Part shown: positions 7,950 to 23,567 of the stretch, in pieces
Layout: each line of letters begins with the position of its first letter
How positions within the stretch are numbered: the first letter of the stretch is position 1
Source of the DNA: a virus
Virus record (IMG/VR): IMGVR_UViG_3300024513_000031
Span: 1-48,036 of that record
Strand: one strand, 5' to 3'
DNA: 48,036 bases
Made by a program: the position numbers and the translations under genes
Notes under the pieces: generated by a model
What the model was told of the DNA's origin: nothing
Seen by the model: only the letters and a program-made list of their open reading frames with translations
The model's database searches: none

Positions 7950-8836
7950 AAAATTATTTGGCTCCCATTAAAATCAAATTTAAAATTTATAGCTTCAAAA
8001 TCTTTTAGTAATTTTAAGTTTGTATTTTCTGCATCTTCTTTTGAATATATAATTCCATAACATAAGTTATCACTTAAATCAAATGATTCAAGTTTAGAAA
8101 ACATGCATTTATTAATAAACTCGATTGAGTTTTGACCAGTACATTTTAAATGTTTTATCTTAAAATTGTTTTTTACAATGTTTAAAAATCTATCAATATT
8201 AAATGACAAAAGGCTTTCTAAACCATCTTCTGCATATCTTAATATTGTCCATTTTTCTTTTTCGTTTAGTTCTATATTGTCTTGATTGTTTTCAGTTAAC
8301 AAATAAATAAATATTCTTTTTTGTAAAAAATGTATTTGTTCATTTGTTATTTTTAAAGGACTGTATGAAATATCATTGTTTTTATTTAATTTTGCAAAAG
8401 AAATTCCGCCGAAACAAGAAGCATATATTTTTGAATATGAACACTTATCTTTAAAAAGAGTCATTGCTATTTCTTGCGAAAAACTAATTAATTTAACATT
8501 GCTGCAATATATAGACTTTAAACTAAAAATGCTTTTAACTAAACCAAAAATCAAAGCATATTTATGTTCGTTGTTATCAGGAAGATCAGAAAAGAAATCT
8601 ATTTTTATATCAGAACAATTTATTTTATTTTTTTCAAAGTGCTTAAATACTAATTCAACAATTTCATTATCTACAGTTTCTTTTTTTTCAAATTTATTTT
8701 TTATTCTAGCTATTACATAAACATATTTATTTATACAAAAATTTAATATTAAACCATAGTTTTGTGAGAACCATGATACTAAATCAGTTCCGTTTCCAAG
8801 CAACGAAAATGAAATAGGCGTTTTAGTTATTATCAT
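7946..8836 (-). CDS. GHMP kinase-like protein (heptose-7-phosphate kinase type, degenerate)
   Basis: 296 aa. The first 45 residues (MIITKTPISFSLLGNGTDL, then CINKYVYVIA) match the start of GHMP sugar kinases of the D-glycero-D-manno-heptose 7-phosphate kinase type, which open with R/KTPLRISFAGGGTDL and an 'IDKYIYV' strand. The ATP-loop that normally reads PxGxGLGSSA is replaced here by DLPDNNEHKYALIFG, without the Gly/Ser run. Phosphoryl transfer may therefore be weak or lost. The C terminus ends in an alpha/beta region typical of the family. It overlaps the upstream GT by 14 bases. Together with the nucleotidyltransferase at 10515 it suggests making an activated sugar; the exact sugar is inferred. 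Confidence 0.6.
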   Translation of the reverse strand: MIITKTPISFSLLGNGTDLVSWFSQNYGLILNFCINKYVYVIARIKNKFEKKETVDNEIVELVFKHFEKNKINCSDIKIDFFSDLPDNNEHKYALIFGLVKSIFSLKSIYCSNVKLISFSQEIAMTLFKDKCSYSKIYASCFGGISFAKLNKNNDISYSPLKITNEQIHFLQKRIFIYLLTENNQDNIELNEKEKWTILRYAEDGLESLLSFNIDRFLNIVKNNFKIKHLKCTGQNSIEFINKCMFSKLESFDLSDNLCYGIIYSKEDAENTNLKLLKDFEAINFKFDFNGSQIIL

Positions 8837-9518
8837 AAATATTACTTGATATTTCTATTTTTTCTTTTAATGTTTCAAATTTTTCTTTGTGAATAGTAGG
8901 TTCCTCATCGCAGACTTTATCTAATGAACAAAATGCATAATTATCGCTTACAAAGCTATAATCATTAGTCCAATAGTTGTCTTTTTTTACAGATCCAAAA
9001 ATAGGTCTTTTGTATTTAAGATAGTCTTTTGTTTGTATGGGATTAGATTTATATGTATCTAATATTTCTTTTGGAAAGAATATTCCATGTAAATCAATTT
9101 TATCTTCTAAGGCAGGATCAATTCCATAAACATCAATCAAATTCCATTTAGACGATTGATTTTCATATAAAATTTCTAATGTATTTTGTATTGGTATAGT
9201 AGATCCAGATATTTTTATTATTTTATCAAAAACACAATTTTCAAAACCTATTTTTTCTGAATAAGAATGAAAATTATATAGTTTATTAAAATTGTTTTTT
9301 TCTAAAGATTGATAGTGCGGTCTTACTATCTTCCAGAAATAATTAATTCTAAAAGCTTGAACTTCTTCAAAAATATCACATGTATTATCGTCTACTATTA
9401 CAACTTCAAAGCTCTCATTTTTTTCTAAAAGTTTTTTAGTAAATCTGGCTATGTGATAAAGAGATCTTTTTAAATTTTTTTTACTATTGTCTGGTATTAG
9501 CAAAAAAGAAGTTGTCAT
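8823..9518 (-). CDS. Glycosyltransferase-like protein (GT-A/GT2 type)
   Basis: 231 aa. The N terminus MTTSFLLIPDNSKKNLKRSL followed by FEVVIVDDNTCD fits the first two strands of a GT2 domain, with the acidic nucleotide-binding 'VDD' at residues 42-44. A middle strand FDKIIKISGSTIPI lies where the DxD motif is expected, but no clear DxD is present. The family call therefore rests on the N-terminal pattern and the neighbourhood. The C terminus has ENYW-like aromatic residues (NYWTNDYSFVSDNYAF). It abuts the next gene with a one-base overlap. Likely a sugar transferase with an unknown donor. Confidence 0.5.
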   Translation of the reverse strand: MTTSFLLIPDNSKKNLKRSLYHIARFTKKLLEKNESFEVVIVDDNTCDIFEEVQAFRINYFWKIVRPHYQSLEKNNFNKLYNFHSYSEKIGFENCVFDKIIKISGSTIPIQNTLEILYENQSSKWNLIDVYGIDPALEDKIDLHGIFFPKEILDTYKSNPIQTKDYLKYKRPIFGSVKKDNYWTNDYSFVSDNYAFCSLDKVCDEEPTIHKEKFETLKEKIEISSNIYDNN

Positions 9519-10531
9519 TAAAGAACTCCTTTGCTTAATAAATTTTCATTTATTTTATTTTCATAGTTTTCAAAATTTATATTTTTTAAAACACGAATTA
9601 ATCTATGGTGATATGTATGATTGTTATAAATATGTTTCTTTATTGCGTTACAACTATCTTTATATTGATCAATATTTTTTAAAACCTCTAAGACTTTATT
9701 TAAATAATTTTCTTGATTATCTGCATATATACCAATGTCATTAAAAATAAAATCAGTATCTGTATTTTTTTGCATGACGGTTATTCCATTGCAAGAAAAC
9801 ACATCAAATAAAAATTGAGGTATTCCAAAACCATATTCATAATTGTGTTTTTGATAAATTGTTGGACATACCTTTGCAGAGGCAATAACATCTTTTATTT
9901 CTTTGTTATCGACAAAGCCAAGATAATTAAATAATTGACATTTATTTTTTCCAAAAATCTTTATTGATAGTTCTTTATTTTTGAGCAAATTAAAAAATAC
10001 GCTTTCAAATTCTTTAGATTTATAATTTGTGTAATTACCTACATATGATAAATCTGATATGAATTTTTCTTGTATAATAGGATTAAAACAAAGATAAATA
10101 TCGCAAGCAGATGCAAAATCAAGGGTGTTAATTCCTAAATCTAGCCATTTACTCGAACATAAACTTAATGTTTTTTCTGTACAGTTTTGTAATAGTACAT
10201 CTGGCTTGCCAGTTTGTTCCATCAACTCTTTAATATTTGTGTATTCTTCTTCTGTACAAAAATTTTTATTACTAATCCCATCCAATGTATAAGAACCGAG
10301 CAATATAACTTTTGTATTATTATATTTTTTTAAACATTTTATAATTGATTTATTAATACTTGAAGTGCAACTTATAAATAAATCAGGTTCTCTTTCATAA
10401 AATGCATCAAATGCCGATTTTTGATTGTTATCCCAAAAAACAAATTCATCTCCTATATCAGAAAATATTTTTCCAATAGCTGAGAGTTTTCTATATTGCT
10501 TTCCGTTTTCTTGCTTACAAAGTATTTTCAT
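9518..10531 (-). CDS. GT-B glycosyltransferase, CgeB-like
   Basis: 337 aa. It reads MKILCKQENGKQYRKLSAIG and then alternates strands and helices of a GT-B fold. The C-terminal donor domain has IFGKN, LGFVDNKEIKDVIASAKVC and GFGIPQFLFDVFSCNGITVM, the acidic/aromatic region where group 1 transferases bind the nucleotide-sugar. The end HTYHHRLIRVLKNI is the typical tail of CgeB-like (Glyco_trans_1_2) proteins. It would transfer a sugar from an NDP donor. It shares a 17-base overlap with the nucleotidyltransferase upstream and one base with the GT downstream, so all three are probably co-translated. Confidence 0.7.
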   Translation of the reverse strand: MKILCKQENGKQYRKLSAIGKIFSDIGDEFVFWDNNQKSAFDAFYEREPDLFISCTSSINKSIIKCLKKYNNTKVILLGSYTLDGISNKNFCTEEEYTNIKELMEQTGKPDVLLQNCTEKTLSLCSSKWLDLGINTLDFASACDIYLCFNPIIQEKFISDLSYVGNYTNYKSKEFESVFFNLLKNKELSIKIFGKNKCQLFNYLGFVDNKEIKDVIASAKVCPTIYQKHNYEYGFGIPQFLFDVFSCNGITVMQKNTDTDFIFNDIGIYADNQENYLNKVLEVLKNIDQYKDSCNAIKKHIYNNHTYHHRLIRVLKNINFENYENKINENLLSKGVL

Positions 10532-11195
10532 TTTTTTTCACAAACTTCTTTGCTTTTGTTATGTCTAAATATGTATCTATTTCTACTATTTCTTCAATAA
10601 ACTTTACTTTTAACTTAACTCCAAAATCTATCATTCTATTCAATATTTCAAAACCAAACCACTTGTCAGTTTTTACATCGCTAGAGATTCTTAAAAAAAT
10701 GTTTTTATCTTTTTCTTTTAAAAAAACTATGTGCGCCCACTTTGGACATATTCCATAACTAAAATGTTCAGCATATCCATCTATAACATTAACTCCTACT
10801 TCAGAAGTTCTTTTGCTGTTCTTTTCAACAAGAATAAAGCTTTCCGAAAAATCAAAATTACTAAAAATAGATTTATTAAAAACAATATCGCCATAAATAA
10901 TTAAACAGTCTTTGCTTACAGAATTTGATATTCCAATATTTATTGATTTGGAAACATTTGTATTTTGAAAATCTTTATTAACTATAACTTTTGGATCGTT
11001 ATTTTGAAATAATAACTTTTCTTTTTGAAATCCTAAAACTACAATTGTTTCTGTTTTTCCAAAACTTTTTTTAATTATTGATAATATTCTTGTGATTACA
11101 GTATTTTTTTCATCTATTTTAATATTTGCTTTTGGCCCATGAGACTTCATGCGCTTTCCAATTCCGGCAGCTGGAATGATAATGCACATATCCAT
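10515..11195 (-). CDS. Sugar/alcohol-phosphate nucleotidyltransferase
   Basis: 226 aa. The start CIIIPAAGIGKRMKSHGPKA is the NTP-binding signature of nucleotidyltransferases (GxGxRM followed by PK). A second motif LIIYGDIVFNKSIF carries the metal-binding Asp in the usual 'xxGDxxF/L' place, and the C-terminal EEIVEIDTYLDI fits the second metal Asp region. The family makes NDP-sugars or CDP-alcohols from a phosphate and an NTP. Next to a heptose-kinase-like GHMP protein it may make an NDP-heptose, but its sequence equally fits MobA-like or choline-phosphate cytidylyltransferase types. The start shares one base with the stop of the gene upstream. Confidence 0.72.
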   Translation of the reverse strand: MDMCIIIPAAGIGKRMKSHGPKANIKIDEKNTVITRILSIIKKSFGKTETIVVLGFQKEKLLFQNNDPKVIVNKDFQNTNVSKSINIGISNSVSKDCLIIYGDIVFNKSIFSNFDFSESFILVEKNSKRTSEVGVNVIDGYAEHFSYGICPKWAHIVFLKEKDKNIFLRISSDVKTDKWFGFEILNRMIDFGVKLKVKFIEEIVEIDTYLDITKAKKFVKKNENTL

Positions 11196-11845
11196 TATTG
11201 CTTCACCAAATAAAGTTTTTCTGTAAATCTATGGCAAAGAAAGTTATCTCCTATAATTGATAACGGAGTTCTTTCTTTTTGAAAAAGATTATAAGGTTTA
11301 ATGCTTTCTATAACTAAACGATTTGTAAAAAAATTGCATTCATTTGATTCTTCATCTGAAGAAAATGATTTTTTATAATTAGTAAATTTATAACCATTTT
11401 TTGATAATTCTTCATTGTTTGAATAACACGATCCAACTATATAACTGCCATTATTTAAAATGGACGATGCCTTTTTTAAAAAATCTGGATAAAAAATAAC
11501 ATTTGGTTCAAAAAAACCACAAATATCATATTTATTTAAATATGTATACATAATATAATTTTTAACAGCATTTTTTTTATTGTCACACATTTTAATAAGT
11601 ATTAGTTTAATATTATTAAAAATACCTTTTGTTAGAACAAACCCTTCTTCAGTTTCTTCTATTTCAATATTTCCCATTAGATCAATAATGTTATCATCAA
11701 CATCAGATGAAATATCTGTATCTATTAAATATAGATCTGTTTTTTTATTAGATGCCAATGATAAACTTTGTATAAAATCTTTTATAAAAGCATATCGTTG
11801 TTCTAAACAGACAAGTATTCCTATGCTTGTTTCATCGAAGGACAT
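11195..11845 (-). CDS. GT2-like glycosyltransferase
   Basis: 216 aa. SIGILVCLEQRYAFIKDFIQ is a GT2-type opening strand and helix. It is followed by TDLYLIDTDISSD, and by YDICGFFEPNVIFYPDFLKK, which is the 'D/ExN-xxxxPDFL' segment that in GT-A enzymes holds the metal motif and its following helix. The C terminus IIGDNFLCHRF matches the late acidic/His region. A glycosyltransferase is well supported by pattern, but donor and acceptor are not known. It overlaps the upstream gene by 25 bases and the downstream one by one base. Confidence 0.6.
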   Translation of the reverse strand: MSFDETSIGILVCLEQRYAFIKDFIQSLSLASNKKTDLYLIDTDISSDVDDNIIDLMGNIEIEETEEGFVLTKGIFNNIKLILIKMCDNKKNAVKNYIMYTYLNKYDICGFFEPNVIFYPDFLKKASSILNNGSYIVGSCYSNNEELSKNGYKFTNYKKSFSSDEESNECNFFTNRLVIESIKPYNLFQKERTPLSIIGDNFLCHRFTEKLYLVKQ

Positions 11846-17780: not shown

Positions 17781-18908
17781 TTAAAGTTGGTTAATGTCCT
17801 TTAAAACCATAGCATCTGTTTTGCGATCACGATCAACACGAATCAAAACAGTATTTCCTACAAATACTTTATCTAGATGCATTTCGTAAGCATCTGGAAA
17901 TATTATAGCATTGTCTATTTTACAAGAAGAATCGGATACAGTTAATCTAGCCATTCTTCTACCAGGATCTTTTCCATTTTTTGTAACTATTTCTTTAACA
18001 TCTAATATTTCAACTGACAATACCATAAATCCAGTTTTACCAAAATAAAATTCTTTGCATGTTGTATTAGCAGATTGATTTTCTATTCCATCCGTTAATG
18101 AACATGATAGTGCTATGCCAAGATTTTCTCTTTCTGACCAAACTTTCCAAGATATTGGATCATTATATTCAGTTGGAGGATTTTCTAACATATTATATAA
18201 ATCAGATGTTAATGAAATACGATTTTTATTACTGCATCCACCACCTTCTTTTTTAGGTTTTGATAAAGCTAAAATGCATTCTTTAAGATTTTTTGTTTCT
18301 TTGCAATTTTCTTTAATCCATTCTTTTTCTTTTTCTGTTAATTGATTCCAAGTTTCTAATTCAGATATAAGTTTTTGTCTATACTCGCCACACCAATCAA
18401 AACCGCCGACAGCAATAACTTTTGCTACTGATGTAGAAGAAATAGAGTCTGAACAATAAATTAAAAATTTAATCCAACTATCTATTTTTTCAGATTGAGA
18501 ATTGAAGCAAGAAATAAGTTTACTTATTTGTGAAGTACCTATTCCTTTTATATCGGACAAGCCAAACCAAATAGATTCCCCATCAGTATAAAAGTTTGAC
18601 TTTAACATTCTGATATCTGGAGGATATACATTTATATTATAAAGCTTTGCATTGTCTATTAGATCGGCAACTTCTTGAGAGCTATCAGCTTTATCTTTTG
18701 CGTAAAAAAGCCAACTCGTAAAAAATTGTACTGGGAAATGACTTTTTAAATAAGCTGTATCATATCCAGTAAAGCCATAGGCGGAACTGTGACTGTTTGA
18801 TACCGCAATTCCATTCGCATAAAAGATATGTTCTTCATTATCAACTTCAATATCTAATGTTTCAATAATTCCTATTTTTTTAATTGACACGATTGATTCA
18901 GGCTGCAT
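17781..18908 (-). CDS. dnaE: DNA polymerase III alpha, C-terminal part fused to split-intein C half
   Basis: 375 aa. Residues 1-38 are a split-intein C fragment ending in FYANGIAVSN. The extein starts with Ser39: SHSSAYGFTGYDTAYLKSHF, the conserved end of the DnaE fingers. Further on come helix-hairpin-helix-like WFGLSDIKGIGTSQI, a linker, and an OB-fold (GFMVLSVEILDVKEIV). These are the C-terminal domains of a bacterial DnaE that bind template and partners. The gene starts inside the last 37 bases of the endonuclease gene. After trans-splicing, its 337-residue extein would be joined to the fingers part from the gene at 19829, giving about 541 aa. Splicing is inferred from the motifs. Confidence 0.93.
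   Translation of the reverse strand: MQPESIVSIKKIGIIETLDIEVDNEEHIFYANGIAVSNSHSSAYGFTGYDTAYLKSHFPVQFFTSWLFYAKDKADSSQEVADLIDNAKLYNINVYPPDIRMLKSNFYTDGESIWFGLSDIKGIGTSQISKLISCFNSQSEKIDSWIKFLIYCSDSISSTSVAKVIAVGGFDWCGEYRQKLISELETWNQLTEKEKEWIKENCKETKNLKECILALSKPKKEGGGCSNKNRISLTSDLYNMLENPPTEYNDPISWKVWSERENLGIALSCSLTDGIENQSANTTCKEFYFGKTGFMVLSVEILDVKEIVTKNGKDPGRRMARLTVSDSSCKIDNAIIFPDAYEMHLDKVFVGNTVLIRVDRDRKTDAMVLKDINQL
18795..18908 (-). other. Split intein C half (38 aa)
   Basis: Covers codons 1-38 of the C-terminal DnaE gene. The segment ETLDIEVDNEEHIFYANG is the F block (the Asp and the HIF region), and GIAVSN is the G block, with the cleaving Asn last and Ser as the first extein residue. The residue before Asn is Ser instead of the usual His. 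The length is normal for natural split-intein C halves. Confidence 0.9.
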
Positions 18909-19801
18909 TGTATTTCCTTTATTATAATGCCTTCGTTATTTAAAATATCGCTTTCCCAAAATCTAATAAGTTTTAGTTTATTATCAAGACAAAACTTATT
19001 TTTTACTTTGTCTCTATAAAAATTAATCTTTTGAGTATTCGTTTTTGGCCCATTTGGATAAATCTTTGGATTAACATGAAAATAATCTCCGTCTACTTCA
19101 ATAAATAAATTATAATCTTTTAACCAAAAATCAAAAATCCAACATTCTATAATCTTTTCTTCTTCAAAATTTAATTTTAATTTTTGTAAAATACTTTTCA
19201 TTAATAAATGAGGCTTGGTTTTTGTATGTTTAAAAGCTCCTTTTTTAATTCTGTTTAAAGTAGCTATAGACATTAATTTTTTTGAAAACTCTGAATGTTT
19301 AATTCCTGTATGACCATGAATCAATCTTTTTTTAGCAGATATTGATTGTTTGTTTTTAGATTCTTTTGATGTTTTTTTACCAATCCTATACAAAGACATC
19401 TTTTTACCATATTCTGAATTTTTCTTATTCATCCCTAAGTTCCAAGGTTTTTTGCCAAACATTGGATTGTTTTTACCAATTCTAGAAATTTTTGCATCTT
19501 TAGACCATTTTTTTGATCCTTCGTATCTACCACATGCATATTCTTTCCAGAAAAAACCGTTTTTATTTTTATTTCTTAAAATTATTTTTGTTTTTTTATT
19601 GCATTCTCCGCATTTACAAATAGGTCTTATTATTTTAACTATTTTTTCAAAATAGTCTTCTAAAGAGATTTTATGAGAAACTATATGTTGAGCCATGGCT
19701 TTAGAAAAATAAACATTAGAGCCTCCATAAAATTTTTTAATTTCATGTAAGTTTTTATTACATAGAAAACATTTATTCCAAAAATTCTTTTCTATTTTCA
19801 T
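18872..19801 (-). CDS. Free-standing EDxHD homing endonuclease between split-intein halves
   Basis: 309 aa. The N-terminal zinc-finger-like part has CFLCNKNLHEIKKFYG and a downstream HIVSH, resembling a ROS/MucR finger. A second Cys set follows (CKCGECNKKT). NUMOD3-like DNA-contact repeats come next (RIGKNNPMFGKKPWNLG and later copies). The C-terminal nuclease core has FEEEKIIECWIFDFWL, LFIEVDGDYFHVNP and NFYRDKVKNKF, giving the acidic, His and Asp residues of the EDxHD/Vsr-like fold. It has its own start (after AGGTG) and its own stop, and lies between the two halves of the DnaE intein, the arrangement known as a fractured gene. Its likely target is the intein-less dnaE allele. Confidence 0.82.
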   Translation of the reverse strand: MKIEKNFWNKCFLCNKNLHEIKKFYGGSNVYFSKAMAQHIVSHKISLEDYFEKIVKIIRPICKCGECNKKTKIILRNKNKNGFFWKEYACGRYEGSKKWSKDAKISRIGKNNPMFGKKPWNLGMNKKNSEYGKKMSLYRIGKKTSKESKNKQSISAKKRLIHGHTGIKHSEFSKKLMSIATLNRIKKGAFKHTKTKPHLLMKSILQKLKLNFEEEKIIECWIFDFWLKDYNLFIEVDGDYFHVNPKIYPNGPKTNTQKINFYRDKVKNKFCLDNKLKLIRFWESDILNNEGIIIKEIQCSLNQSCQLKK

Positions 19802-19828
19802 AGTATCACCTATGACTTATTACACCGA
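19802..19828 (-). promoter_or_regulatory. 27-base gap with GTGTA-type promoter-like motif
   Basis: GGTGTAATAAG lies on the - strand at 19816-19826 in the only gap between the intein N-half gene and the endonuclease gene. It matches RGTGTAWWWA found in other gaps. AGGTG lies six bases ahead of the endonuclease ATG. The endonuclease may thus have its own transcript; this is inference from the motif. Confidence 0.25.
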
Positions 19829-20731
19829 TTATTCTAGGTCACACATAATACTATAGTTTTTTTCTAAAATATCATAAAGCGTTCTTTTTTTACCATCAGA
19901 ACATAATATTTTGTGATTTAATGTGCATTTTAACTTTTTGCCACTTGATGTTGTTATTTCATAAACTTCTTGTTTTCCATTATTTATTTTATCTTTTACT
20001 TTAATAAAAATATTTTTTTTATATTTGATAGATGGAGCTAAAACATAATCATTAATATTTAATTCTTTAAGTGTTTTAAAGCCTTCTTTTGTTTCTACTA
20101 CAGAATCTGGAGACAAACATTTATTAAATGAATATCTTTGACTTGCTTGTATCCAACCAAATAACTCTTCTGCTTGTTCGTCAGAAATAATCTTTGCTTT
20201 TTTAGCACCGTCAATAAACATCTTTTTGCAGTTAGCCATTTCTTGGGTATTTTTTTTACCAATAGCTTTTCTCAAAACATCAGCTTCTTGCAAGTTAAAT
20301 CCAGCAACAGCTTGTGCTATTTGCATAGCTTGTTCTTGAAAAACTAAAGCGCCATAAGTTGGTTTTAATATTTCATCAACGGATTCATGATAACTAGGAA
20401 CTTTTTCTAAGCCATTAACTCTTTTGCAATAATGTTCTGTCATAGAAATTCCATCTTCGTCTAATGCACGAAGACAACCCGGCCTTAAAAGTGCGCCAAG
20501 AGCAGATAAATGCTCCATATTTTTGGGTTTTAATTTCTTTGACCATTGTTTACCAAGATGAGATTCCAATTGAAAAATGCCCTTGGTATCACCATTTGAA
20601 AAAATTTTCCAAGCTAAATCACAATATGGTAAGTTGTGTAAATTTATTTTAAGCTTTGGTATTTTTCCATTTTTAGATGGTTCTAAAATTGGCCACTTAC
20701 AACCACAATCAAATTTATAAAAATCTTCCAT
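19829..20731 (-). CDS. dnaE: DNA polymerase III alpha, fingers part fused to split-intein N half
   Basis: 300 aa from ATG 20731, which has GAGGTAAT just upstream; an upstream in-frame start at 20776 would run into the exonuclease gene. Residues 1-204 are DnaE fingers: DTKGIFQLES, LSALGALLRPG, ALVFQEQAMQIAQAVAGFNL, ADVLRKAIGKK and RYSFNK. The latter is directly followed by the intein N half starting at Cys205. It lacks the palm catalytic Asp residues, which are in the 637-aa gene upstream. In bacterial DnaE the break before this part falls in the linker after the palm. The product should splice in trans to the 375-aa gene product and pair with the palm subunit. Confidence 0.93.
   Translation of the reverse strand: MEDFYKFDCGCKWPILEPSKNGKIPKLKINLHNLPYCDLAWKIFSNGDTKGIFQLESHLGKQWSKKLKPKNMEHLSALGALLRPGCLRALDEDGISMTEHYCKRVNGLEKVPSYHESVDEILKPTYGALVFQEQAMQIAQAVAGFNLQEADVLRKAIGKKNTQEMANCKKMFIDGAKKAKIISDEQAEELFGWIQASQRYSFNKCLSPDSVVETKEGFKTLKELNINDYVLAPSIKYKKNIFIKVKDKINNGKQEVYEITTSSGKKLKCTLNHKILCSDGKKRTLYDILEKNYSIMCDLE
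19832..20119 (-). other. Split intein N half (96 aa)
   Basis: Last 96 codons of the fingers gene. It opens with CLSPDSVVE (A block, catalytic Cys1 after FNK) and has GKKLKCTLNHKILC (B block with the Thr-x-x-His motif). It ends at the gene's own stop without the F and G blocks, which are encoded separately at 18795-18908. The complete intein would be about 134 aa, a minimal intein without an embedded endonuclease. Confidence 0.92.
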
Positions 20732-20738
20732 TATTACC

Positions 20739-21404
20739 TCAAGATATAAAGCCCTTTGCAGTACCAGAGTTTTCATTTAAAGAGTTTTTAAAGTTAACTC
20801 TCGTAGCTACTTTTCTATGTAGTTGAATAAAACTTTTCAATAGTAAAGCTGTTTGTTTAACATCTACTAATGCATCGTGAGCATTTGCTGTAGAAAGACC
20901 GAAAAATTCTCTTAAAGTATCCATTTTATGATCACGGAGTTCATTAGAATTATCAAACCATTGAAAAATAAAATCATCTAAATCAAAAACGCTTCTTTTA
21001 TTAAATAAGTTTTGTTTTCCGTTTTTATCACAATCGCCAAATTCTTTTGCTAAACGATTAATAATAATTAAGTCAAAATGCCTAATGTTTTTTCCAGCTG
21101 CTATTGGAGCAAAGAAAGTGTTTCCTGGTTTTGGATTATATTTTTTAATAAACGATGTAAAAGATTTCCAAACAATAGAAAGATCTGGAGCCTTTTCTAA
21201 TTCTTCAATGCTTTTCTTGTTTATTTCAAGAGCTTCTTTTTCCAATTTTGAAAAATCCCTTGGTTTAATCAAGCTGCTATATTGACCAAGCTCAGTTAAA
21301 CTTCTTGGATGCAAAGCCATCGCTGCAACTTGTATAACTTCACAAGTTTCTGGGTTTACACTACCAGTTTCAAAATCAAAAACAACTATAGTTGAATTAT
21401 TCAT
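20739..21404 (-). CDS. DnaQ-like 3'-5' exonuclease (DEDDh)
   Basis: 221 aa. All DEDDh residues are visible: VVFDFETG (Asp10, Glu12), RHFDLIIIN (Asp111) and ANAHDALVDVKQT (His176, Asp181). This is the proofreading fold of the DNA polymerase III epsilon subunit. It lies between the palm and fingers genes of the split DnaE, seven bases before the fingers start, so it likely proofreads for that polymerase. The DnaE PHP domain also keeps metal residues, so two proofreading activities are possible. Confidence 0.92.
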   Translation of the reverse strand: MNNSTIVVFDFETGSVNPETCEVIQVAAMALHPRSLTELGQYSSLIKPRDFSKLEKEALEINKKSIEELEKAPDLSIVWKSFTSFIKKYNPKPGNTFFAPIAAGKNIRHFDLIIINRLAKEFGDCDKNGKQNLFNKRSVFDLDDFIFQWFDNSNELRDHKMDTLREFFGLSTANAHDALVDVKQTALLLKSFIQLHRKVATRVNFKNSLNENSGTAKGFIS

Positions 21405-21411
21405 TTTCTTC

Positions 21412-21657
21412 CTATTCTAGATCTAAGGTTTTTTTAATTTCAAGTTTCAATGTGCCTTCTTCATCATATTTTAAATCTACATAAAACTCATTGCTTTTTG
21501 CAGCTTCTAAAAATTCAGATTTAAGATTAACTTTTCCTCCTAATTTAAAAACCAAAGCTTTCATTAACATCAATGTTTCTTTTATAACAACATCTTTTGT
21601 TTTAATTTTTTCATGCAAAGAAACAAGTTCATCTTGTAGATCGCCTTTTCGTTTCAT
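21412..21657 (-). CDS. Small helical protein between DnaE palm and exonuclease
   Basis: 81 aa. Not recognised. The first half is a Lys/Glu-rich amphipathic helix (DELVSLHEKIKTKDVVIKET) that could form a coiled coil. The second half has a beta segment (FYVDLKYDEEGTLKLEIKKT). It starts within the last four bases of the PHP/palm gene, so it is translationally coupled. Being between two polymerase subunits it may be a small assembly or bridging factor, but no sequence motif shows this. Confidence 0.6.
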   Translation of the reverse strand: MKRKGDLQDELVSLHEKIKTKDVVIKETLMLMKALVFKLGGKVNLKSEFLEAAKSNEFYVDLKYDEEGTLKLEIKKTLDLE

Positions 21658-23567
21658 AAACTTTCTCCAGCAAGAAGTTTTTGAACGCCCATCATTTTAT
21701 CCAAAACTGCAACCCCAAGAATATCAAATTTAACAAGCCCAATAGATTCAAGATCAGACATTTCTAATCCAGCTATATTTTCATGAGATGTTTTATCATA
21801 AATCATAGGGCATATATTTTGTAAATTCTCAGAGGCAATTACTATTCCAGCAGCATGTTTGCTTTGTGATCTTTTAGTTCCTTCCATCCTTATTGCTTGG
21901 GCAAAGTATTTTGCATATTGACCTTCTAATGTTCCGTCATCTTTTAGTTTACAATATGGATCTAAATCTTTTTGGCAATTTTCTAAGGCCCATCTAATTA
22001 TAGAAGGTTCTTGTCCTTCATCTCTCATTTCTTGTAATTCTTCGGTTATTTCAGCTTCATCTGGAATATGTTTTGTTATTAGATTGCTTTCTTCAAAGCT
22101 ACAAGCAGCGTGAATACGCAAAACATCTTTTAAAGCACCTCGGCCTTGCATTCTTGTAAAAACAGATATTTGAGAAACTTTATCATTACCATATTTGTTT
22201 TTAATATAGTTAATAATCTCTTCTCTTTTTGATATTGGGAAATCACAATCAATATCTGGCAAACTAATTCTTCCTGGAGCATTACGACCAGAATTATAAA
22301 ATCTTTCAAACAATAATCCGTTTTCAATTGGATTTATTTCAGTAATTCCCAATAAATAACTAACCATACATCCAGCGCCAGATCCACGACCTTTGCCAAT
22401 AAGCCACCCCTGTTCTCTCGCCCAATTGCAATAATCATAAACAATTAGGAAATAGTCTTCTAAGCCAGCAGAAGTTATAACTTCTAATTCTTTAGTGACT
22501 CTATCTCCATATTGATTAAATTTTGGGTCTTCTTTTTTAAAAGAAAATCTTTTTTTCCAACCTTCTCTACAGAGTCTTTTTATTTCTGATGACGATGAAC
22601 TATCTCCAGTTATTTTTGGCAACATAGGAGATTTCAAAATACTATAATCTTTGCACCTGTTAAATATTTCAAATGTATTTTCTATCTCTTCATTAGAGTT
22701 TAATTTAGAAATTTCTTCAAAAGACGGTATATGATAATTATTTGATTTAAAAAAACCAGAAAAACCAAAGTCTTCATCGTTTTGAATATGATTTCTAATA
22801 TCATTTAATGTCTTTTTCATCGAACAAGCTAACAAAACTCTTTGGTCAACAGCATCTTCTTTTCTTGCATAATGAGCATCTGGTGTAGCAACGGTTTTGA
22901 AACCGTGCTTTTTTGCTATATGTCTTAAAGCTTTAGCTATTATTTTAGTCGCTGGTATGTTTTCAGAATCTATTAACTGTATTTCTAAGTAAAAGTTTTC
23001 TTTTCCAAATAAGTCTGCGTATTTATATGCTAGATCAGTAGCTTTCTTTTCCCAATTAGGATCAATTAATGACTTGGCGTGTTCAAATGTTTCTGCTCTA
23101 TATGCTTCTGTTAAGTTTGTAAATAAACAATTTCCCAAGTCAGAACCTGGGTGACCAGAAAAAACAATAAAGGAACCATTTGAAATAGACGCAAGAGTTT
23201 TAAGGTCAAGTCTTGGTTTTCTATAAAAGTTTTCTGGAGAACTAGAAATAGAACTAGCTTTTACTAAGTTCTTCCATCCAATATCTTGTTTTGCAAGAAC
23301 ACATAAATGACTTAGTTTTTTATTATCTTCATTCTTTATTGTAGGTTCATTTTCACATATATAAAATTCACAACCAAGTATTGGATCAATAGATTTGGAT
23401 TTTAACTTTTTATAAAATGAAATAGAACCAGATAAAGATCCATGATCTGTTAATGCACAACCTTTTAATCCAAGTTCTGATATCCTATCTGCTATTCTTT
23501 CAGCAGAAGGAAGTCCATCAAGCAATGAATATTGCGAGTGAACATGCAACGGAATCCAATTTGACAT
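21654..23567 (-). CDS. dnaE: DNA polymerase III alpha, PHP and palm part
   Basis: 637 aa. PHP domain with metal motifs: PLHVHSQYSLLDG (His8, His10), ALTDHGSLSG (Asp41, His42) and TPDAHYARKEDA, so a metal site may be active. The palm has GKGRGSGAGCMVSYLLG, the catalytic pair in LPDIDCDFP near residue 441, and LVKFDILG near residue 613 with the third Asp. It ends shortly after that helix, in the linker that joins palm to fingers in bacterial DnaE. Fingers and C-terminal domains are on separate genes. The chain has no intein motif at its end, so it joins the rest by non-covalent contact. It is the first polymerase gene of the unit. Confidence 0.93.
   Translation of the reverse strand: MSNWIPLHVHSQYSLLDGLPSAERIADRISELGLKGCALTDHGSLSGSISFYKKLKSKSIDPILGCEFYICENEPTIKNEDNKKLSHLCVLAKQDIGWKNLVKASSISSSPENFYRKPRLDLKTLASISNGSFIVFSGHPGSDLGNCLFTNLTEAYRAETFEHAKSLIDPNWEKKATDLAYKYADLFGKENFYLEIQLIDSENIPATKIIAKALRHIAKKHGFKTVATPDAHYARKEDAVDQRVLLACSMKKTLNDIRNHIQNDEDFGFSGFFKSNNYHIPSFEEISKLNSNEEIENTFEIFNRCKDYSILKSPMLPKITGDSSSSSEIKRLCREGWKKRFSFKKEDPKFNQYGDRVTKELEVITSAGLEDYFLIVYDYCNWAREQGWLIGKGRGSGAGCMVSYLLGITEINPIENGLLFERFYNSGRNAPGRISLPDIDCDFPISKREEIINYIKNKYGNDKVSQISVFTRMQGRGALKDVLRIHAACSFEESNLITKHIPDEAEITEELQEMRDEGQEPSIIRWALENCQKDLDPYCKLKDDGTLEGQYAKYFAQAIRMEGTKRSQSKHAAGIVIASENLQNICPMIYDKTSHENIAGLEMSDLESIGLVKFDILGVAVLDKMMGVQKLLAGESL

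Follow-up and report, generated by a model that had tools for sequence, protein, structure and literature searches.

A predicted split intein and a free-standing EDxHD endonuclease gene fracture dnaE in a virus of bacteria, at a site found in several states among its relatives

In 2009 Dassa et al. reportedly described 'fractured genes', in which the two halves of a split intein flank a separate endonuclease gene, in eight gene types, perhaps with DnaE among them. A further case of this known arrangement lies in a virus of bacteria, IMG/VR record IMGVR_UViG_3300024513_000031, of which positions 1 to 48,036 were analyzed (this whole stretch of 48,036 nucleotides is called the window). Its dnaE gene is split in two by an endonuclease gene, and the interest lies in the series of states that relatives display at the same site. 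As in the Dassa-type fractured genes, the window combines a DNA-metabolism enzyme gene, a split intein, a Vsr-related EDxHD gene and a phage origin; the differences are that the interrupted gene is a phage dnaE, cut at FNK/SHS, and that several unrelated endonuclease families are found at one site.

The cyanobacterial split DnaE inteins (Npu, Ssp; PDB 4kl5, 2keq, 1zd7) share the host protein and are among the closest solved inteins by profile. Their site is three residues upstream (AEY/CFNKSHS), they have Cys+1 and no known endonuclease, and their gene halves lie far apart on the chromosome. The DnaE mini-intein of Rhodococcus phage Grayson occupies the same site, FNK/SHS, but is contiguous: its 151 residues form one chain between FNK and SHS, which ends in THN, not SN. 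The window endonuclease core has its top profile and fold match in I-Bth0305I (PDB 3r3p), at 20-22% identity over the core; the gene for this enzyme lies within a group I intron that interrupts recA in a Bacillus phage. According to a review, I-Bth0305I belongs to the EDxHD enzymes, has several domains and binds as a dimer to a target of nearly 60 bp (PMC3943268). The nearest published case found is Pseudomonas phage MIJ3, in which polB is split by an intein with a separate HNH endonuclease open reading frame (ORF) in between (PMC6892783): a phage DNA polymerase gene, a split intein and a separate endonuclease ORF are common to both, whereas the MIJ3 polymerase is of family B and its endonuclease is HNH. 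Cysteine-less split inteins are described in PolB of T4-like phages (PMC12707363). Among the open-licence literature matches listed, no title or abstract start mentions a fractured phage dnaE.

The three ORFs of the fractured gene are on the minus strand, where the first-pass annotation, made from the letters of the window, had placed them (Table 1). A motif resembling a ribosome-binding site stands ahead of each: TTGAGGTAATAATG before the fingers gene fused to the intein N half (IntN), AGGTGATACTATG before the endonuclease gene and AAAGGAAATACAATG before the gene that carries the intein C half (IntC). The fingers-IntN ORF spans 20776-19829 (315 aa) and matches Pfam DNA_pol3_finger (E 1.1e-42); its likely start, picked by comparison with the intein-less relatives L027, L029 and L019, is Met16 (base 20731), giving 300 aa. 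The IntC-containing ORF, 18908-17781 (375 aa), passes from its 38-residue C half directly into SHSSAYG and the remaining DnaE. In the three intein-less relatives the uninterrupted gene is one ORF of 541 aa, which equals the sum of the window's exteins (204 + 337 = 541 aa), and blastn alignments of the window to intein-less relatives (75-80% DNA identity) break at 18797 and 20117, two bases or less from both intein ends. A fractured gene is marked by two things, a conserved enzyme gene that a split intein and an intervening endonuclease ORF break in two, and homologues that are uninterrupted at the same site; both are seen here. Chance is not a reasonable account of this layout, and the feature is almost certainly real.

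Table 1. Coordinates of the dnaE region in the window
Feature	Position	Strand	Evidence
dnaE part 1 (PHP + palm), 637 aa	21654..23567	-	separate gene, without intein; Pfam DNA_pol3_alpha 3.1e-73, PHP 4.2e-35
DnaQ-like proofreading exonuclease gene, between both native dnaE parts	20739..21404	-	Pfam RNase_T 1.4e-15; phrog_192 DNA polymerase exonuclease subunit
dnaE part 2: fingers (204 aa, likely start Met at 20731) joined to IntN, own stop	19829..20731	-	profiles
Intein N half, 96 aa	19832..20119	-	C1 LSPDSVVE..., block B TLNH, end ...IMCDLE; TIGR01445 34.0 bits
Free-standing EDxHD/Vsr-type homing endonuclease gene (predicted), 309 aa	18872..19801	-	profiles, AlphaFold2 model, fold match
Nuclease core, about residues 196-301 of endonuclease	18899..19216	-	alignment of 15 relatives
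37-nt overlap: endonuclease 3' end / IntC gene start	18872..18908	-	reading frames
Intein C half, 38 aa, end AVSN, next residue Ser+1	18795..18908	-	TIGR01443 17.3 bits; alignment
dnaE part 3: C-terminal extein, 337 aa, starts SHSSAYG	17781..18794	-	DnaE C-terminal models
Whole insert (IntN + endonuclease + IntC), 1325 bp	18795..20119	-	absent from intein-less relatives; blastn breakpoints; DNA of the empty site in L027, L029 and L019

Both intein halves proposed by the first-pass annotation, an N half of 96 aa that ends the fingers gene with its own stop and a C half of 38 aa that opens the C-terminal gene and ends in AVSN before Ser, are recognized by family models and retain splicing residues of a class 1 intein. 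On the fingers ORF, NCBIfam intein_Nterm (TIGR01445) exceeds its cut-off of 24.5 bits from residue 220, which is C1; Pfam Hint, located after the fingers domain, is above its cut-off (1.3e-7), and Pfam Intein_splicing, at 27.7 bits, is under its own (35.8). Cys1 and the block B TxxH (TLNH) are in place, and the stop codon is at 19829-19831. On the last ORF, NCBIfam intein_Cterm (TIGR01443) exceeds its cut-off of 15.6 bits; aligned with eight relatives, the C half shows His in block F and Asn as its last residue, with Ser+1 following (DIEVDNEEHIFYANGIAVSN/S). Searched against PDB, a profile of nine N halves has its best matches among DnaE inteins (4lx3 2.2e-13, 4qfq 2.7e-13, 2keq 3.4e-13), with gp41-1 weaker (5.5e-8); the window N half alone matches more weakly, at best 0.0011. 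The structure was predicted for a contiguous same-site relative, L162, in place of the window's own halves: the model is confident (predicted local distance difference test, pLDDT, 95.6) and most closely resembles the Npu DnaE intein (E 6.8e-10, template-modelling (TM) score 0.91, 28% identity), followed by gp41-1.

The gene between the halves was also rightly read as encoding an EDxHD/Vsr-like core: family profiles, the profile match to 3r3p and the predicted structure all support this. DUF559 is above its cut-off, the PHROG 'homing endonuclease' family matches as well, and the Vsr profile, at 21 bits, is under its cut-off of 97.85. A profile of 15 relatives finds I-Bth0305I best in PDB (3r3p, 2.2e-8), then 3hrl (4e-6) and Vsr (1e-4). 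The AlphaFold2 model has a mean pLDDT of 81.8 and a predicted TM score of 0.42, too low to fix the placement of the domains against one another; its top Foldseek match is the I-Bth0305I catalytic domain, 3r3p (E 1.5e-4, TM 0.79-0.81 by target length). In the nuclease core of the 15-relative alignment D224, F225, E235, G238, H242 and E283 are invariant and D264 and W282 nearly so; E235, H242 and D264, the conserved acidic and His residues, presumably include catalytic ones. A Vsr-like core related to I-Bth0305I and conserved acidic and His residues are what the EDxHD family would lead one to expect. The 'NUMOD3-like repeats' of the same annotation fared worse, because NUMOD3 gives a single sub-threshold Pfam match (one stretch, 13.4 bits against 20.4). 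Three of the 28 endonucleases found between such halves (those of the window, L069 and L061) have no full-length match in a collection of 50,697 phage records; their matches, with 29-49% identity, extend over 58% of the query or less, and none of the annotations names DnaE. Endonuclease relatives L068 and L071-L079 are stand-alone genes, with no intein in the neighbouring ORFs printed (by eye); most of the neighbours look by eye like phage structural genes (L077 is unclear).

We regard it as highly likely that the window holds a fractured dnaE with a naturally split, trans-splicing intein and a free-standing EDxHD endonuclease that homes into intein-less dnaE. The second native dnaE gene would be interrupted between FNK and SHS by the split intein, whose break point holds the EDxHD gene. 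The fingers-IntN and IntC-C-terminal parts would be made from separate ribosome-binding sites and associate via the two parts of the intein; class 1 trans-splicing, with C1, the block B His, the Asn at the end and Ser+1, would then yield a continuous fingers/C-terminal DnaE chain of 541 aa that would work alongside the separately encoded PHP/palm subunit. The endonuclease would cut the intein-less dnaE of co-infecting phages near FNK/SHS, and repair would copy the whole 1.3-kb insert into the cut gene. Splicing, the cleavage site and homing by the window's copy are predictions from its sequence; the split intein and the endonuclease are probably working.

The first-pass annotation had also taken this layout in a phage dnaE to be novel. 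The arrangement itself, a split intein plus an EDxHD gene in dnaE, is borne out, but it is no one-off: 27 other pairs have it at the same site. First scans found the same architecture in two distant contigs, L005 and L006, whose endonucleases are 49% and 34% identical to that of the window, and the same split in four records, the window's included. A scan with the endonuclease alignment matched at least 36 viral loci and one contig of a bacterial metagenome-assembled genome, L095; the C-half alignment matched 72 loci, and for the N-half alignment the best 80 of 84 were taken. The counts of intein pairs come from these scans and are minima, among the matches listed. When 162 loci (several per contig) were scanned and distinct pairs with IntN above 40 bits, IntC above 20 bits and the two within 1.8 kb were kept, 60 rows remained; three of these were then left out, namely L231, L238 and L228, the last apparently at a different place in DnaE.

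The result is a set of at least 57 distinct intein pairs, classified by hidden Markov model and reading frame, at the same DnaE junction, FNK/SH. The halves enclose an EDxHD gene in 28 of these, window included, and an ORF labelled LAGLIDADG in six (labels by eye; the three tested with Pfam are all above cut-off), the one in L121 being short. IntN is fused in frame to NUMOD4-HNH in three (3/3 above the Pfam cut-off), a free HNH gene is present in one, an EDxHD remnant in two (L104, L138), and no endonuclease in three split pairs, with a gap of 34 to 60 nt. At least nine are contiguous, a form that is undercounted because weak contiguous inteins (e.g., L129, L131, L155, L166) fell under the cut-off; the remaining five are of other kinds, among them L143 and L149, with an antisense GIY-YIG gene (Pfam 24.7 and 33.1 bits, cut-off 22.6). 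L122 has an antisense ORF that is HNH-like by eye, without a Pfam match, and in L208 and L221 DUF559/Vsr matches are sub-threshold only. Leaving out the nine contiguous inteins gives 48 distinct predicted split pairs; the N junction of L070 is cut off by the contig end. L138 looks like L137 after loss of the greater part of the endonuclease, its split intein still being in place.

In all 27 EDxHD loci that score above 150 bits, the endonuclease gene reaches into the beginning of the IntC gene (taken as the first ATG in its frame, or GTG/TTG where ATG is missing), always in the same frame relation and by 19-100 nt (37 nt in 11 of the 27); the 28th pair, L214 (146 bits), departs from this, with two further ORFs after the endonuclease. 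This is compatible with a single ancestral EDxHD fracture. The LAGLIDADG genes of L099, L106 and L109 also extend past the IntC frame start, so that the overlap may be a general constraint, which weakens the argument for a single origin. An intein tree (132 columns; unrooted; 24 of 54 inner branches with support below 80) requires at least 21 changes among the eight states, against a shuffled mean of 27.7; since none of 200 shuffles reached so low a number, the states are also clustered on the tree. Its starred branches alone force four changes for EDxHD and three for the contiguous state, and gain and loss are indistinguishable because the tree is unrooted.

How far such inserts are maintained and move was measured on relatives. 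In 14 pairs, chosen by eye, the ratio of replacement to silent substitution rates (dN/dS) is at most 0.29 for every insert for which it is defined. For IntN, endonuclease and IntC it is 0.07, 0.04 and 0.06 in L006/L065, 0.06, 0.14 and 0.10 in L113/L118, and 0.06, 0.06 and 0.01 in L229/L230; for the two halves of L133/L135, which are separated by a 34-nt gap without an endonuclease, it is 0.04 and 0.02. Third codon positions were compared in four pairs picked for their closeness: the intein halves are more alike than the flanks in L006/L065 (107/134 vs 178/409, p 1e-13) and L113/L118 (97/131 vs 230/518, p 9e-10), and no insert/flank difference is seen in L229/L230 (p 0.67) and L118/L119 (p 0.20). 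A further set was picked by rule and comprises all 41 pairs whose intein identity reaches 0.60 or more, the comparison being limited to codons that encode one and the same amino acid in both; five pairs differ at p<0.0012, the insert being more alike in all five, in line with what homing would produce, and very strongly so in two (0.80 vs 0.45; 0.75 vs 0.48). Because a difference appears in these five pairs and not in the others, whole inserts seem to move between dnaE backgrounds, though rarely.

Several results weigh against a working, homing insert in the window. Its own insert was met in the scans only as identical copies, and all figures on selection and mobility come from relatives. Around its site, no co-conversion tract is seen in comparison with the empty allele of L027: identity is flat in 60-nt bins, at 77-90% upstream and 68-93% downstream. 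The 36 remaining pairs of the 41 show no insert/flank difference at p<0.0012. Over 28 loci, Spearman correlations are 0.67 between intein and endonuclease, 0.72 between intein and extein and 0.69 between endonuclease and extein (each reached in 0/2000 permutations); as these are nearly equal, most loci look co-inherited with their own dnaE. Silent changes are saturated in many of the 14 dN/dS pairs, and IntC of L137/L138 has two replacement changes and no silent one. Finally, the penultimate block G His is absent from the window, which has Ser instead. This His is common in inteins, not universal; the cyanobacterial DnaE inteins likewise have Ser there, and SN closes the C half of every one of the 28 EDxHD pairs.

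An insert that splices without being a homing unit, its endonuclease aimed at another place, would fit the stand-alone EDxHD relatives (L068, L071-L076, L078, L079; no intein in the neighbouring ORFs printed, by eye) and the unrelated endonuclease families at the same break point, from which it follows that the association of intein and endonuclease is exchangeable. Yet the EDxHD gene accompanies 28 of the 57 same-site pairs and runs into IntC wherever this was tested (27/27), and a few inserts look laterally moved; we consider this alternative unlikely. Even less probable is a relic: a contiguous intein would have been disrupted by the endonuclease, its halves would have lost the ability to splice, and the two polymerase chains would act together non-covalently, each still bearing its intein tail. 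This polymerase has one break free of any intein, at the palm/fingers border, and therefore tolerates separate chains, but the splicing residues are kept, the changes in the halves of relatives are mostly silent, and split inteins persist without any endonuclease, as in L133/L135 with their low dN/dS; a non-functional relic is thus not indicated. There is next to no chance that the locus is a contiguous intein with an internal endonuclease, broken by assembly, sequencing errors or a frameshift. The window is an IMG/VR contig, and chimerism is suspected in another contig of this phage, 221 kb long; against this, the split recurs in four records including the window's and, diverged, in 27 other distinct pairs, each ORF has its ribosome-binding-like motif, and the constant frame relation in 27/27 loci already contradicts such an artefact. 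A trans-splicing intein with a homing endonuclease remains the favoured explanation of the locus.

Two large contigs, of 206 kb and 221 kb, each hold the window's fractured dnaE together with an intein-free dnaE, the two being 88-90% identical. Compared with itself, the 221-kb contig shows some 68 kb at one end that run collinear, in pieces of 68-86% identity, with a region at its other end, about 147 kb away. In IMGVR 3300024509_000007 (G001), 1-68 kb and 147-216 kb are collinear copies, mostly 70-83% identical, one with the split intein and one without; 3300024358_000009 has the same order of two copies. Rather than two dnaE copies in one phage, the collinear ends of the 221-kb contig probably reflect two strains merged in assembly, a reading weakened by the second contig, whose order is the same as in the chimeric-looking one. 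On either view, relatives with the intein and relatives without it seem to co-occur, a condition for homing.

The occupants of the site suggest a wider reading, to which we give even chances: FNK/SH of phage dnaE would be an endonuclease socket, where one split-intein lineage keeps the break point while unrelated endonucleases come and go. Its occupants would be EDxHD, LAGLIDADG, HNH (free or IntN-fused) and opposite-strand GIY-YIG genes, remnants, or none; the break would outlive the occupant, endonuclease-free split inteins such as L133/L135 would be the end product, and the intein could re-fuse or be re-invaded. Further variation was noted at this site. A subgroup (L106, L109, L121, L188, L099, L194, L165, L208) has Ser1 instead of Cys1 and takes in five of the six LAGLIDADG-labelled split forms and two contiguous inteins. 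L070 (1211-2389, +) has a fractured dnaE with Cys+1 (SN/CHAVEY), the other EDxHD pairs having Ser. The endonuclease of L125 (2576-3499, +) has an EDxHD-like middle (GKNNPMYNKDPWNKG, GHTGCKHS) but an HNH domain at its end (Pfam 36.7 bits), which looks like a swap of the catalytic domain. The pair in L228 (3501-4689) is apparently at another DnaE site (QFTS/C ... SN/CFQEQ). A junction search of 12 phage loci returned a junction line in eight, with an intein in L048 and L054 only, and none in L047, L055, L057 and L058. Bacillus phage G, considered as a carrier of a dnaE intein, proved to have an empty site.

The window's dnaE is also broken upstream, without an intein: the PHP/palm gene (23567-21654) is apart from the fingers/C-terminal gene, and an 81-aa gene and the DnaQ-like exonuclease gene lie between the native parts (20731-23567, minus strand). 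The border of the PHP/palm gene is the same in the intein-less L027, L029 and L019. Since these have the same gene order, as does L005 without the 81-aa gene, the native break is probably older than the intein.

The phage of L005 also carries, at 8398-11226 (+), a 942-aa glycosyltransferase-like ORF with an apparent in-frame intein (CFPAGTPVVTDFGY ... VHNC) and LAGLIDADG-like motifs (by eye). L081 (2053-3978, +) holds another fractured gene: an ORF ends in an intein N half right after a KVDG motif, which we take to be RNA-ligase-like; after it come a stretch that briefly matches the endonuclease and an ORF opening with an intein C half, VHN/S. A tRNA scan and an Rfam scan (gathering threshold) of the window gave no match.

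The series of states bears on how split inteins arise and why they stay split, and may show their origin: one protein site is found empty, contiguous, and broken with an intact endonuclease, with a remnant, with nothing and with endonucleases of different families. The 48 distinct predicted split pairs at the DnaE junction are not the same as the Npu DnaE tools, to which they are related; the endonucleases belong to several families, and their predicted target is a conserved stretch of DnaE-type polymerases. If the socket reading is true, the endonuclease-free state known from cyanobacterial DnaE would be the end product of this cycle.

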